A DNA stretch of 36,012 bases from Chitinophagaceae bacterium (GTDB lineage Bacteria; Bacteroidota; Bacteroidia; Chitinophagales; Chitinophagaceae), in NCBI GenBank assembly GCA_016787125.1, contig JAEUVM010000501.1:1-36012 (forward strand), in the 5' to 3' direction. This document shows positions 30,450 through 36,012 of the stretch, piece after piece. Position 1 is the first letter of the stretch. The number at the start of each line of letters is the position of its first letter. The notes under the pieces are model-generated. The model did no database searches, was not told where the DNA came from, and saw nothing but the letters and a program-made list of their open reading frames with translations. The translations under genes and the position numbers were made by a program.

Positions 30450-31649
30450 TCATTTTTCTTCTTTCAACACTTTTGGTTTTCGGCGGAATAAACGCCGTCT
30501 TCTTTTTTCCATGCTTTCCACGGCAAGCCACAGGCTGTGCAACTCCACCTCCTGCTGTTTTCCTTTCAGTTGAAACCCTCCCAGCGATTCTGCCGCAAGG
30601 TATTTGGGCAGTTCTACCTGTTTCCTGATATAGTCTGAAATAATGAAAGAAGCATTCAGCTCGTGGCATTTGCTGAGTATCCTGGCTGTGGTATTAAGCA
30701 CATCCCCGTGATATGCGATCTCCGACTTATATTTTCCCACTTCTGATACCACCACGTTGCCGCCATGCAGCGCTGCCTTGAACTCCGGTACCCGGCCATA
30801 TCGTTGCTGGTATTGCTTTTCGTACCGCCTGATTTGTTTCTGTATGGCAAAAAAACAACGGGCACATACAGCATAACGCATCCCTTTGCGCAATGGCCAG
30901 GTTACCACCACTTCATCACCCACATACTGGTAAACCCGTCCAAAATACCGGGCGATCGGTTCACTGATATCATAGAAGTAATCCTGTAAGAAATGACTGA
31001 ATTCCATTTCACCCATTTCTTCTGCAATATCTGTGGAGTTATTCAGGTCGATAAAAAGAAAGAGACGTTCTTCCTGTTTCACCTGGTGATACTTACCCAG
31101 CACCAGGTTATAAATGGCATCGCGGCCAAGTTTGCGATGCAGTTCATCAAAAAAGTTTGACAACAAGGAAATAACCAACGCTATTCCAAGGAATTCAAAA
31201 ACCTTTCGTGTGGCAAAAAAATCATACAGGCTGTGGGGAAAGATCGTTTCATAGGTATTAATCTTCAGCCAGTTTACCAGCACCATGATAAAAAAGAAGA
31301 GTACCATGAACCATACCACCACCCTGAATGTGCGGTAAACCAGGTACCACCAGAACCGGGTACGGCGGTGCCGGCGGCGAAACTCCTGTGATTGAGTTTC
31401 AAAGAATGCGATGGCAAAACCGATCGGCACACTTACGATCAGGGAAGTGGAGAGTGCGATCCAGTTAAATCCGTGCCTGGTATATGCATAGAATGCGAAT
31501 AACAGTACCGACAGGTAGACTATATAAACATTGTTCTGTGAAATCACTTTCCACGGCTGCAGCAGGTCGAATGATGAAACTGCACGGGCACCGGCCTTTC
31601 CCGTCAATGTGCCGGGGTCCTCAGGGTTATGGTCATGCTCAATGCTCAT
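30450..31649 (-). CDS. membrane-anchored class III adenylate/guanylate cyclase-like protein
   Basis: This 399-residue protein has about four membrane helices in its N-terminal half (41-58, 62-82, 108-130, 150-166) and a cytoplasmic class III cyclase domain after residue 190. Metal ligands are visible as D201 in LFIDLNNST and D245 in QYVGDEVVV. The transition-state pair is N319 and R323 in HGDVLNTTARI, and K308 is a candidate base-recognition Lys. The second substrate-specifying position appears to be Ala312 instead of Asp or Thr, so the nucleotide made (cAMP, cGMP or other) is uncertain. No HAMP or sensor domain is seen. It diverges from the histidine operon. Confidence 0.9.
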   Translation of the reverse strand: MSIEHDHNPEDPGTLTGKAGARAVSSFDLLQPWKVISQNNVYIVYLSVLLFAFYAYTRHGFNWIALSTSLIVSVPIGFAIAFFETQSQEFRRRHRRTRFWWYLVYRTFRVVVWFMVLFFFIMVLVNWLKINTYETIFPHSLYDFFATRKVFEFLGIALVISLLSNFFDELHRKLGRDAIYNLVLGKYHQVKQEERLFLFIDLNNSTDIAEEMGEMEFSHFLQDYFYDISEPIARYFGRVYQYVGDEVVVTWPLRKGMRYAVCARCFFAIQKQIRRYEKQYQQRYGRVPEFKAALHGGNVVVSEVGKYKSEIAYHGDVLNTTARILSKCHELNASFIISDYIRKQVELPKYLAAESLGGFQLKGKQQEVELHSLWLAVESMEKRRRRLFRRKPKVLKEEK

Positions 31650-31706
31650 GAGTGTTAGTTTGATATGATCCCGATAACCGAATGTATGATTTATCCGAAA
31701 AATCCT

Positions 31707-31736
31707 TTGCGTAAATTTAAAATATCGCTACTTTTG
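31707..31736 (+). promoter_or_regulatory. promoter of the histidine operon
   Basis: TTG at 31707-31709 (within CCTTTGCG) is followed after 19 bases by TACTTTTG at 31729-31736, a full match to the Bacteroidota consensus. The leader-peptide ATG lies at 31746, 9 bases after the -7 box, so the mRNA would have almost no 5' leader before the peptide. Confidence 0.65.
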
Positions 31737-31745
31737 CTTTTAACA

Positions 31746-31802
31746 ATGAAAAAATACACACATACACATCATCATTTCTTCCTCCGAAAAGGTAGGCCGT
31801 GA
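31746..31802 (+). CDS. hisL: histidine operon leader peptide
   Basis: The 18-codon frame reads MKKYTHTHHHFFLRKGRP then TGA. Codons 6, 8, 9 and 10 are CAT (His), so four of five consecutive residues are His, a density expected only for an attenuator leader. It lies between a consensus promoter and a strong terminator in front of hisG. When charged His-tRNA is scarce a ribosome should stall at codons 6-10 (31761-31775). The last codons (GGT AGG CCG) double as the antiterminator strand. It is too short for usual gene calls. Confidence 0.85.
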   Translation: MKKYTHTHHHFFLRKGRP

Positions 31803-31827
31803 TGGTTGTATATGCAACAACGATATA

Positions 31828-31863
31828 AAAGGGCTTACTACACAGTAAGCCCTTTATTTTTTT
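31828..31863 (+). terminator. rho-independent terminator of the his attenuator
   Basis: AAAGGGCTTACT (31828-31839) and AGTAAGCCCTTT (31844-31855) form a perfect 12-bp stem with loop ACAC, followed by ATTTTTTT (seven T at 31857-31863). It lies 32 bases before hisG and after the leader peptide. Confidence 0.88.
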
Positions 31864-31894
31864 CAGGAATCGCCGGACATAACAATGAATTATT

Positions 31895-32755
31895 ATGAAT
31901 GAAATATTAAAGATCGCAGTCCAAAAATCAGGGCGCCTTTACGATGGCTCAATGAAACTGCTGAAAGAGTGTGGCATAGAAATCAGCAATGGCAATAACC
32001 AGCTACGGGTACAGGCAGCGGATTTCCCTGTAGAAATATTCTTTCTCCGGGATGATGATATTCCGGAATATGTACAGGATGCGGTGGCGGATATCGGCTT
32101 TGTCGGGGAAAATGTGGTGGTTGAGTCCGATAAAGAAATTGATATAACAGAGAAACTTGGTTTTGGGAAATGCCGCCTTTCCTTAGCCGTACCCAAAAAC
32201 GGTTCCCTGCAACAACCTGCAGATCTCGATGGCAAACGAATAGCAACCAGCTATCCCTTTATTCTTCAGGCCTATCTCATCCGCAACAAGATTAAAGCAC
32301 AGGTTCATCAGATCAGTGGCTCGGTGGAAATTGCCCCCAAAATTGGCTTAGCTGATGCCATCTGCGATCTTGTAAGTTCGGGCAGCACACTTTTTAGCAA
32401 CGAATTGAAGGAAATTGAAACAATACTTTTTTCCGAAGCAGTGCTGATCAGCAACAAACAACTTTCTCCCGCAAAAAAAATTATTCTGGAAAGCCTGTTG
32501 TTTCGCATAAGAGCAGTGAAAAAGGCCCGGAATAATAAATATGTGCTGCTGAATGCGCCGAATGACAAACTTGAAAGCATCTGCCGCCTTCTTCCGGGCA
32601 TGAAAAGTCCTACCATCCTGCCATTGGCAGCGTCCGGGTGGAGTTCCGTTCATTCAGTAATAAACGAATCGGATTTCTGGAATGTAATAGAACAATTAAA
32701 AGAAGCAGGCGCCGAAGGCATTTTAATAATACCCATAGAAAAAATGATCGTATAA
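31895..32755 (+). CDS. hisG: ATP phosphoribosyltransferase, long form
   Basis: This 286-residue protein begins LKIAVQKSGRLYDGSMKLLKECGIE and carries the HisG signatures DDIPEYVQDAVADIGFVGENVV and the PRPP-binding-like DAICDLVSSGSTLFSNELKEIE. The C-terminal 75 residues (VLLNAPNDKLESICRLLPGMKSPTILPL to EGILIIPIEKMIV) form the ACT-like regulatory domain of long-form HisG, so feedback inhibition by histidine is expected and HisZ is not needed. It condenses ATP and PRPP, the first step of histidine synthesis. It follows an attenuator. Its stop TAA shares its last A with the hisD ATG. A five-codon frame (31885) overlaps its start. Confidence 0.97.
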   Translation: MNEILKIAVQKSGRLYDGSMKLLKECGIEISNGNNQLRVQAADFPVEIFFLRDDDIPEYVQDAVADIGFVGENVVVESDKEIDITEKLGFGKCRLSLAVPKNGSLQQPADLDGKRIATSYPFILQAYLIRNKIKAQVHQISGSVEIAPKIGLADAICDLVSSGSTLFSNELKEIETILFSEAVLISNKQLSPAKKIILESLLFRIRAVKKARNNKYVLLNAPNDKLESICRLLPGMKSPTILPLAASGWSSVHSVINESDFWNVIEQLKEAGAEGILIIPIEKMIV

Positions 32756-34032
32756 TGAAAATGTATGCATACCCGGATATCGCCGAATGGAATACCATTT
32801 TAAAACGACCGGCAACCGAAAAGAAATTTTTACAAAAAACAGTAAGGCAGGTATTAAAAAAAGTAAAAAAGAACGGTGATAAAGCCGTAATAAAGTTTAC
32901 ACATGCCTTTGATGGTGTTTTGGTCAACAGCCTCCGGGTAAGTGAGGAGGAAATCACCACCGCCGCTTCAAAACTGACTGATGAATTGAAGGAAGCAATA
33001 CAGGTGGCAAAAAAAAATATTGAAAAATTTCATACTGCTCAAAAGGAGCCCATCACAATTACTGAAACAATGCCCGGCATCACCTGCTGGCGTCAATCGG
33101 TAGCCATTGAAAAAGTGGGATTGTACATCCCCGGAGGTACTGCCCCGCTTTTTTCTACCGTGTTAATGCTGGCTATACCTGCGCAACTGGCAGGCTGCAA
33201 AGAGATCATTCTCTGCACACCACCTCAGAAAGATGGTAGTGTACATCCGGCGATTCTATATACGGCCAGCCTTTGTGGAGCCACTGCAGTATACCGGTGT
33301 GGTGGTGCCCAGGCGATAGCTGCAATAGCTTATGGCACAGAAAGCATTCCGGCCGTACAAAAAATATTCGGACCCGGCAACCAGTATGTTACTGTTGCCA
33401 AACAAATGGTGCAATTGGATGGTGTGGCTATAGATATACCAGCCGGTCCATCTGAAGTATTGGTAATAGCAGACCATACAGCCATACCCGGTTTTGTAGC
33501 TGCCGATCTTTTATCACAAGCCGAACATGGACCCGACTCCCAGGTTGTACTTATAAGCACCAATAAAAAAACGGCCGGTCTGGTGCTAAAGTCCATCAAA
33601 GAACAACTCAAGACCTTGCCTCGTAAAGGAACAATAAAACAAGCACTCAAATATGGCCGGATCGTAATAGTCGGTACACTTAATGACGCAGTGGCGATTT
33701 CCAACCGGTATGCACCCGAACACCTTATCCTGTGCTGCGAAGATGCCGGGAAAGTTGCAGGAGAAATAACGGCTGCCGGTTCGGTCTTCATCGGCAATTA
33801 CTCACCTGAAAGTGCGGGAGATTATGCCAGCGGCACCAATCATACCTTACCAACCGGGGGATTCAGCGTTTCACACAGCGGTGTTTCGCTTGACAGCTAC
33901 ATAAAAAAAATAAGCTTTCAGCAATTGACAGAAGAAGGGCTTGCCAACATTGGTCAGACCGTAATGACCATGGCTGAAGCTGAAGGCCTGGATGCACATA
34001 AAAGAGCGGTTGAAATAAGACTAAATAACTGA
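32755..34032 (+). CDS. hisD: histidinol dehydrogenase
   Basis: This 425-residue enzyme has the HisD signatures VEKVGLYIPGGTAPLFSTVLMLAIPAQLAGC, YRCGGAQAIAAIAYGTESIP, KIFGPGNQYVTVAKQ, IPAGPSEVLVIAD and LLSQAEHGPDSQ. The catalytic Glu-His pair lies in RYAPEHLIL and the C-terminal GTNHTLPTGGFSVSHSGVSLDSYIKK is present. It oxidises histidinol to histidine in two NAD+-dependent steps with a zinc ion. The start at 32755 overlaps the hisG stop codon by one base (TAATG), so translation is coupled. A longer open frame extends 39 codons into hisG but has no family similarity. hisC begins 2 bases after its stop. Confidence 0.97.
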   Translation: MKMYAYPDIAEWNTILKRPATEKKFLQKTVRQVLKKVKKNGDKAVIKFTHAFDGVLVNSLRVSEEEITTAASKLTDELKEAIQVAKKNIEKFHTAQKEPITITETMPGITCWRQSVAIEKVGLYIPGGTAPLFSTVLMLAIPAQLAGCKEIILCTPPQKDGSVHPAILYTASLCGATAVYRCGGAQAIAAIAYGTESIPAVQKIFGPGNQYVTVAKQMVQLDGVAIDIPAGPSEVLVIADHTAIPGFVAADLLSQAEHGPDSQVVLISTNKKTAGLVLKSIKEQLKTLPRKGTIKQALKYGRIVIVGTLNDAVAISNRYAPEHLILCCEDAGKVAGEITAAGSVFIGNYSPESAGDYASGTNHTLPTGGFSVSHSGVSLDSYIKKISFQQLTEEGLANIGQTVMTMAEAEGLDAHKRAVEIRLNN

Positions 34033-34034
34033 TT

Positions 34035-35114
34035 ATGGAATTTACCATTGAAAAACTTGTAAGAGAAAATATCAGGAGGATGACACCCTATTCTTCTGCA
34101 CGTCATGAATTTGCCGGTGAAGCAGCTATTTTTCTTGATGCAAATGAAAACAGCATTGATTCGCCTGTACACCTTGTTGTCACCGGAAAAGATAGTTCCT
34201 TACAACTCAACCGATATCCTGATCCATTGCAGCATGAACTGAAAGAGAAGATAAGCCGGGTAAAAGGTGTGCCGGCGGAAAATATCTTCCTGGGTAATGG
34301 AAGTGACGAGGCAATCGACCTGCTGTTCCGTATTTTTTGCACTCCGGGCAAAGACAATGTGATCATTTTTCCGCCAACGTATGGCATGTATGAGGTTTGT
34401 GCTGAGATAAATGATATTGAAGTAAAAAAAGTACCGCTTCTCAGCAATTTTCAAATAAACCTTGAAGCACTTGAACAAACAATAGATCAAAATACCAGGC
34501 TGATCTTTATTTGTTCGCCCAACAATCCCACCGGCAACAGCATGAACCGGGAAGATGTGGAGACAATACTTAATAATTTTGACGGGCTGGTGATAGTGGA
34601 TGAGGCCTATATCAATTATGCCCGGCAGCGATCTTTTATTCCAGAACTGACAGAATACCCGAATCTTGTCATCCTGCAAACTTTTTCAAAGGCCTGGGGG
34701 CTTGCCGGGCTGCGGCTCGGAATGGCTTTTGCAGGTTTACCGGTTATTGAATACATGAACAAAGTAAAATACCCCTACAACATCAGCACAGCTACGCAAC
34801 AACTGGCGTTGGCAGCCCTTGAAATGGTTCCAACAGTAAACAACTGGATACAAGCAACGGAAGAACAGAAAAGCCGCCTGCAAAAAGAATTGGGAGCATT
34901 ATCTTTTACCCAACACATTTATCCGTCTGATGCCAATTTTCTTTTGGTCAAAATGAAGGAGGCAAAAAAAGTTTATGACTATCTGTCCCAAAAAGGCATT
35001 GTGGTACGTGACCGTTCCAGGGTAAAACTGTGTGAAGATTGTCTGCGTATCACCATCGGCACAATAGAAGAAAATAATCAATTGACAGACGCATTAAAAA
35101 ACTACCCGGCATGA
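34035..35114 (+). CDS. hisC: histidinol-phosphate aminotransferase
   Basis: This 359-residue fold-type I PLP enzyme starts [25 protein letters not shown] and has [53 protein letters not shown] and [11 protein letters not shown]. The PLP Lys219 lies in [15 protein letters not shown], and the C-terminal [23 protein letters not shown] carries the substrate-binding Arg residues. It transaminates imidazole-acetol phosphate to histidinol phosphate. It lies 2 bases after hisD and its stop overlaps the hisB start by 4 bases (ATGA). Confidence 0.97.
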
Positions 35115-36012
35115 AAAAGATACTATTTATCGACAGAGATGGCACCGTTGTAAAAGAAGCGCCTCCCTCCTACCAGCTTGATGCTTTCAGCAAACTGGAA
35201 TTTTATCCCGGCGTATTTAAATGGCTTGGGAAAATAGCTGCTCACACCGATTATGAACTTGTAATGGTGACCAACCAGGATGGACTGGGAACGCCTTCCT
35301 TTCTTGAAGAAGATTTCCGGCCGGTACATGAACATATTATGACAAGCCTTGCGAATGAAGGAATACAGTTCAGCGCTGTGCATATTGACAAAACATTTCC
35401 GGCAGATAACGCTCCCACACGGAAACCAGGCACCGGCATGCTGACCGGGTACCTGGATAATCTTTCTTATGATATTGCCGGTTCATTCGTTATTGGCGAC
35501 AGGATTACCGATGTACAACTGGCCCAAAACCTGGGTTGCAAAGCAATATGGATGAATACTGATGAAACGCTTGGCGCTACGGAAGTAACTGATAGCCGCA
35601 GTTTACTGGATCAGGTTGTGGCATTAGAGACTACTGACTGGGAGAAGATATACACCTTTCTTATATTGGGTAGCAGAAACCTTGTTCATGAAAGAGTCAC
35701 AAACGAAACAAAGATCAGCCTGCAGTTGAATCTTGATGGAACAGGAAAATCAGCTATTGATACCGGGCTAAAGTTTTTTGACCATATGCTGGCACAACTA
35801 AGTCGGCACAGTGGCGCAGATATTACATTAAATGTAACCGGCGACCTGGAGGTGGATGAACATCATACAATAGAAGATACAGCTATTACATTAGGCGAGG
35901 CAATATATAAAGCGCTTGGGAATAAAAGCGGGATTGAGCGGTACGGTTTTGTATTGCCTATGGATGATTGTCTTGCCACAGTGTCGATAGATTTCGGTGG
36001 CCGGAGCTGGCT
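35111..36012 (+). CDS. hisB: bifunctional histidinol-phosphatase / imidazoleglycerol-phosphate dehydratase (partial, C-terminus outside window)
   Basis: The frame from the ATG at 35111 is open to the window end. The N-terminal HAD phosphatase domain (about 1-165) has FIDRDGT (D8, D10), [18 protein letters not shown] and [13 protein letters not shown]. The dehydratase domain starts near 190 and shows [30 protein letters not shown] and DFGGRS with its metal-binding His residues. It catalyses two steps of the pathway. The usual zinc-binding CxH...CxC segment of the phosphatase domain (E. coli HisB type) is replaced by [15 protein letters not shown] with no Cys. ATGA overlap with hisC indicates coupled translation. 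Confidence 0.96.

Follow-up and report, generated by a model that had tools for sequence, protein, structure and literature searches.

Leader-peptide attenuation is textbook biology from the enterobacteria, and the classical set of operons controlled in this way comprises trp, his, leu, ilv, phe and thr. The enterobacterial his leader is represented by the Rfam family His_leader (RF00514), and Lopatovskaya (2010) reportedly may predict cases in the Bacteroidetes. His leaders are known from the enterobacteria and from some Firmicutes; those of the Firmicutes, found with hisZ/hisS and his operons, have three to five consecutive His codons and combine a short peptide with a terminator and an antiterminator (PMC9413887, PMC2965389, in the parts available). 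For the Bacteroidota the papers searched gave only hints. A study of Flavobacterium psychrophilum (2021) found strong indications that leader peptides attenuate amino-acid operons, and describes conserved structured 5' elements without Rfam hits upstream of pheA and hisG; neither the anatomy nor the mechanism of the hisG element is set out in its section on 5' cis-regulatory RNAs (PMC9723704). The Bacteroid-trp RNA (RF01692) is a candidate cis-regulatory RNA in Bacteroidetes (PMC2864571), and leader-peptide-like short ORFs are mentioned for Bacteroides (PMC7366714). In the accessible portion of a paper on Bacteroidota his genes the word “leader” is absent, and attenuation is mentioned once, for enterobacteria (PMC8305728). 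Among the papers searched, none was seen to describe the architecture set out below.

The window analysed here is a stretch of 36,012 nt from a Chitinophagaceae bacterium. Near its end, on the plus strand, lie hisG (long form, 31895–32755; NCBIfam TIGR00070 and TIGR03455 above cut-off), hisD (32758–34032; TIGR00069 above cut-off), hisC (34035–35114; TIGR01141 above cut-off) and a bifunctional hisB (35111–36010), which is cut by the window end (TIGR01261 above cut-off; NF003937 at 378 bits for the cut protein). The gene upstream (30450–31649) is divergent, on the minus strand, so a plus-strand terminator can affect only transcripts begun inside the gap before hisG. This gap contains, all on the plus strand, a putative promoter of the Bacteroidota type (TTTG at 31706–31709, a 19-nt spacer, and the −7 box TACTTTTG at 31729–31736) and, 9 nt further on, the ATG (31746) of an 18-codon leader ORF (31746–31802) encoding MKKYTHTHHHFFLRKGRP. 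Its His codons, numbers 6, 8, 9 and 10, are every one CAT (31761–31763 and 31767–31775), four within five codons. The sole terminator found by a terminator scan of 31500–32000, where shuffled sequence would be expected to give 0.3, occupies 31828–31855, with 12 pairs and a loop of 4, and is followed by ATTTTTTT; seven T (31857–31863) mark the expected end of a terminated transcript. The antiterminator strand A, GGTAGGCC (31791–31798), can pair at 8 positions, two of them G-U, with B, GGCTTACT (31832–31839), which is part of the terminator 5' arm (31828–31839); the 3' arm, C, spans 31844–31855. Promoter boxes, leader, antiterminator strand, perfect 12-bp terminator and T run are all present where the initial annotation had placed them. 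Absent from that annotation is a further hairpin (1:2), in which the His-codon segment X (31759–31776) pairs with Y (31799–31814), a segment that follows A, includes the stop codon and extends beyond it; A' (31778–31783) is a possible partner of A inside it. The stop codon, TGA at 31800–31802, adjoins A, with one base between. As a whole, the RNA from 31738 to 31864 folds at −35 kcal/mol, compared with −16.3 ± 2.9 in shuffled copies (z −6.4; 0 of 200 as good).

The enterobacterial hisL, outlined in part in PMC9413887, is like this element in that a leader with His codons precedes hisG and that three hairpins can form in alternative to one another, and it shares the intrinsic terminator and the apparent logic. 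In contrast to hisL, the window element is compact, strand A in this design takes in the stop codon or lies against it, the −7 box lies 9 nt before the ATG, and the peptide is a different one. The Firmicutes attenuators resemble it by description and belong to another phylum, in which they are described as lineage-specific. The hisG element of F. psychrophilum, from the same phylum as the window, may be a system of this type. At gathering score no Rfam family, Bacteroid-trp included, matches the window or 15 related loci; the covariance models of the enterobacterial His_leader and the T-box find no match in the window, and a search of 31650–31950 at E values up to 10 returns only unrelated low scores. 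At that sensitivity the leader is therefore unrelated to the described his leader; the initial annotation had judged the peptide and RNA folds apparently unrelated and had named Rfam his-leader models as a check. The element is thus predicted to operate like a his attenuator while standing outside the Rfam His_leader family.

The reading that we favour, with a probability of about 0.9, is ribosome-mediated attenuation of transcription, with charged His-tRNA as the signal that is sensed. RNA polymerase would initiate a few bases ahead of the leader ATG, with a ribosome trailing it. When histidine is scarce, the ribosome would stall at the His codons, covering X and stopping just short of A, so that A could pair with newly made B; the terminator would then be blocked and hisGDCB transcribed. 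When histidine is plentiful, the ribosome would reach the stop codon in or beside A and cover A, leaving B to pair with C, and transcription would end near 31863. Were no ribosome present, the X:Y hairpin around A would tend to retain A, so that the default would lean to termination.

hisG was found in whole genomes of the family (214/294), order (48/119), class (87/198) and phylum (128/148), sets that overlap slightly, as the order, class and phylum searches include some family genomes. Among the best matches listed, 204 hisG upstream regions were hand-picked for diversity, and are not a random sample. A short His-rich ORF (at least 3 His in 8 codons, starting with ATG, GTG or TTG) precedes hisG in 181 of these, although some of them may be chance ORFs, for example at L206; 161 of the 181 also have a terminator (93 in the family, 68 elsewhere), 20 have the ORF but no classical terminator, and 23 regions are without the ORF. 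By the same rule 88 of 90 family regions have the ORF, and at one of the two misses (L088) some 500 nt separate the element from hisG, so that part of it falls outside the 600 nt examined. A separate scan of named organisms, including Chitinophaga japonensis, Sediminibacterium ginsengisoli and Puia dinghuensis, gave an ORF with 3 or more His among 8 codons at 42/42 loci, with many genomes repeated, and puts the window within or close to Chitinophagaceae. The eight most distant HisG examined (30–33% identity, L205–L212) have no convincing leader. At nine loci (L126, L128, L129, L135, L138, L152, L156, L170 and L183) the leaders are His-rich or of a related type, and HHSS often forms their end. 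Their stop codon is flanked by the arms of an inverted repeat (e.g. TTCCTC before it and GAGGAA after it), and they have no classical terminator; this is perhaps another type of attenuator. In one family outside the class (L197–L200), long His-rich leaders stand before hisG with no recognisable intrinsic terminator, and Rho-dependent control there is a guess. Several genomes of the window's own genus are only 1.5–2.1 Mb in size, and two (G155 and G254), rated 100% complete, have no hisG match; this suggests reduced, perhaps auxotrophic, members of the genus.

The codons themselves are conserved. The family alignment (A1) holds 76 of the 86 terminator-bearing leaders among L001–L090, 14 loci having been removed by hand as near-identical or odd, plus any longer than 165 nt. 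In it CAT or CAC stands at the four aligned His positions in 73, 72, 74 and 76 of the 76 leaders, and variation confined so nearly to these two codons marks, at the level of sequence, a translated frame. The upstream box is widespread as well: TAnnTTTG occurs within 40 nt before the leader ATG in 87/93 family and 43/68 other leaders, compared with 11% of random positions, and ends within 10 nt of it in 63/93 and 19/68. The description of the window leader as “nearly leaderless” fits the distance from its −7 box, from which the start site is inferred. Only 5.5% of F. psychrophilum mRNAs are leaderless, and the median 5' UTR there is 24 nt (PMC9723704, as far as available); against this background, conservation of a near-leaderless start would be unusual. 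In 49/93 family leaders A starts 14–16 nt from the first base of the last His codon, just past a ribosome whose A site holds that codon. In 52/93 family leaders a GTRRG core of A supplies the stop codon as its TRR. Cores that serve as stop (n = 63) are GTAGG 32, GTAAG 24, GTGAG 7 and GTGGG 0, while those that do not are GTAAG 25, GTAGG 21, GTGAG 4 and GTGGG 3; this use of the cores means that antiterminator bases often double as the end of translation.

Both helices of the proposed switch leave a trace among the relatives, where covariation had been suggested as a check. In the terminator, 7/10 pairs have compensatory changes in the family alignment. The A:B pairing is stronger than in dinucleotide-shuffled copies (Fisher p ∼1e-52 for the 93 family leaders, 5e-33 for the 68 others), and is formed in 97.0% of family alignment cells, compared with 22.6–50.3% after sliding by 1–3 columns. 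Swapping partners within the family says little for A:B (own mean −14.29, swapped −13.78), because A and B hardly vary there. Among the 68 other leaders the energies of own partners sum to −938.7 kcal/mol, compared with −684.4 ± 22.4 when permuted, the best of 300 permutations reaching −748.1, so A:B co-evolves among lineages outside the family. An antiterminator and an intrinsic terminator that exclude each other are thus found by the pairing tests, the alignment and the terminator scan. A lack of conservation of the His codons, or of the pairings, had been named as what would count against the attenuator, and was looked for; both proved to be conserved. It is mainly this comparison with relatives that rules out chance as the source of the arrangement seen in the window.

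Hairpin 1:2 was assessed by duplex energies and permutation in place of RNAalifold, which on the family alignment recovers the terminator alone, because gaps misalign the Y region. Own X:Y partners sum to −1390.3 in the family (permuted −1233.4 ± 24.4) and to −936.3 in the others (permuted −703.8 ± 18.6), and at the window locus 0/100 shuffles are as good; by these energies, X and Y co-evolve. On the column alignment the hairpin is formed in 84.5% of cells, compared with 30.4–46.4% when slid, and shows little covariation. A CTTACC-like A' motif, often read as Leu-Pro codons, occurs in 56/93 family leaders compared with 5% of control stretches, and the inner A':A helix of the window itself is no better than chance (85/200 shuffles as good).

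The consequences of ribosome position were modelled with an assumed footprint, which reached at most 13 nt when counted from base 1 of the codon in the A site, on a transcript ending at the terminator loop. For the window leader the probability of A:B is 0.93–1.00 with the ribosome at codons 3–12, 0.70 at codon 13, and 0.00 from codon 14 to the stop; in this RNA folding model, then, a ribosome at the regulatory codons favours the antiterminator and one at the stop blocks it. Over the 161 leaders A:B is permitted at 726/767 His codons, but at only 20/652 of the codons at least 4 past the last His. If a switch is defined as a probability of A:B above 0.5 at the stall and below 0.1 at the stop, it is predicted in 97% of the 93 family leaders and 88% of the 68 others, as against 19% and 28% when the stretch between His run and terminator is shuffled. 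The state without a ribosome comes out less sharply: adding the demand that A:B stay below 0.5 there leaves 61% in the family and 53% elsewhere, and another tally of the model gives 59/93 and 39/68. Comparison and folding lend support to the scheme of the initial annotation, in which stalling would free the antiterminator and reading to the stop would cover it.

The strength of the terminator, and the fact that attenuator function in the window is a prediction, would also suit a constitutive premature terminator that merely lowers his expression, preceded by a chance ORF, with neither the His codons nor A having a role in sensing. This would leave unexplained the conserved His codons, the co-evolution of A:B and of X:Y, the spacing from the His run to A and the match of codon classes to operons (see below), and we consider it very improbable. 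Just as improbable, in our view, is that the leader ORF acts on translation and not on termination, by letting ribosomes reinitiate at hisG or by exposing the hisG start. For leader ORFs such reinitiation has been put forward, with a distance peak in Bacteroidetes too (PMC4833913, in part), and the 20 relatives with His leaders but no classical terminator could be taken in the same sense. In the window, however, 92 nt and the terminator separate the leader stop from hisG, and across family regions the distance from leader end to hisG varies from 65 to 368 nt while that from stop to terminator varies only from 22 to 48 nt.

A T-box or metabolite-binding riboswitch, for which translation would be unnecessary, has a precedent in the histidine T-boxes that regulate his genes of Firmicutes (PMC9413887, in part). 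The Rfam searches given above argue against it, as does the make-up of the window RNA ahead of the terminator, which is nearly all coding plus about 25 nt, and this seems the most improbable of the three. The ribosome-mediated attenuator remains the preferred reading.

Covariance model R1 scores the window element at 102.5 bits; the other match in the window (41.4 bits) is on the minus strand and overlaps the palindromic terminator. In the family R1 matches 46/60 genomes at 48 places. Of the 42 that could be assigned from coordinates or by reading, 38 are within about 500 nt upstream of hisG and 4 are before asd or before an aspartokinase pair. No hisG match was found in 13 of the 60 genomes, and R1 matches one of these, before asd. 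In the class it matches 25/99 genomes, and the two weak matches inspected (L273, L274) are not at hisG. The leader at hisG has clustered codons for the amino acid that the operon makes, and leader codon class agrees with the operon in the family more generally, as judged from the sequences. The His class (here at least 4 His in 8 codons, ATG start, plus terminator) is found at 82/95 hisG, 0/29 argG, 0/29 pheA and 0/30 asd regions; the Lys/Thr class at 30/30 asd, with 2 off-target cases at hisG and 4 at pheA; and the Phe/Tyr class at 27/29 pheA, with 0 off-target. Ile/Leu/Val leaders were scored 9 times at hisG, 12 at pheA and 3 at asd, and 29 family argG regions have no leader of any scanned codon class.

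Before asd (L276–L305), a Lys/Thr-rich leader with terminator stands at 28/30 family loci, or 30/30 with a looser window; that of the window's own genome reads MTMTKHTKRTEKHS (L282, G000:C183:11313–12314, minus strand). The switch model passes 23/28 of them compared with 24% when shuffled, and, unlike at hisG, A:B forms without a ribosome in most. At pheA (L378–L406), 27/29 family loci have alternating Phe and Tyr codons and a terminator, the genome of the window having MTSMKAYFGYYFYYFFFTKKPGMLLLKVN (L392, G000:C549:6198–6734, minus strand); inspection by eye places the A strand at the KPG codons, well ahead of the stop, and details differ from hisG. These sequences suggest that the two sets of leaders sense Lys/Thr and Phe/Tyr, respectively.

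Single leaders were seen elsewhere. At L217, from a different family of the order, ilvD is preceded by the leader MNNKQLSVILSIIISVVNIY and a terminator, recognised by eye and likely to be an Ile/Val attenuator; no leader was seen upstream of the ilvD of the window's genome. Before an aminotransferase and aspartokinase pair (L269, G026:C7), the leader MSRKLYKRMCQLTKQVGRYGIV, again with a terminator, perhaps senses Lys. Upstream of a GNAT-argG pair, one of the weak R1 matches (L273, G438:C36) has an Arg-rich leader, MTTILLNLRSPRRQPNTAG, together with a terminator, and the leader stop codon falls within the A strand. Arginine leaders were considered as a family feature and rejected, 0/29 family argG regions having at least 3 Arg in 9 codons plus a terminator; two of these regions have long Gly-rich ORFs with 2 Arg, which we put down to chance. 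The trpE N-terminal domain had no match in the window's genome and matches in 2/12 relatives.

The same his-leader design recurs in many relatives across the phylum, a spread that was absent from the initial annotation, and it supplies a covariance model for the annotation of his operons. Sensing of Lys/Thr and Phe/Tyr by the asd and pheA leaders would fall outside the classical set. On balance we lean towards the view that the Bacteroidota own a separately built attenuation platform, in which a near-leaderless leader ORF, translated without a Shine-Dalgarno site and with its stop in or beside the antiterminator, has been reused with other codons, including mixed Lys/Thr (asd) and Phe/Tyr (pheA). 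A conserved and co-evolving his attenuator in this phylum predicts coupling of transcription and translation in bacteria whose translation does not depend on Shine-Dalgarno sites. If the view of a separate platform is true, ribosome and RNA polymerase would keep step in the Bacteroidota, at least near the 5' ends of transcripts.
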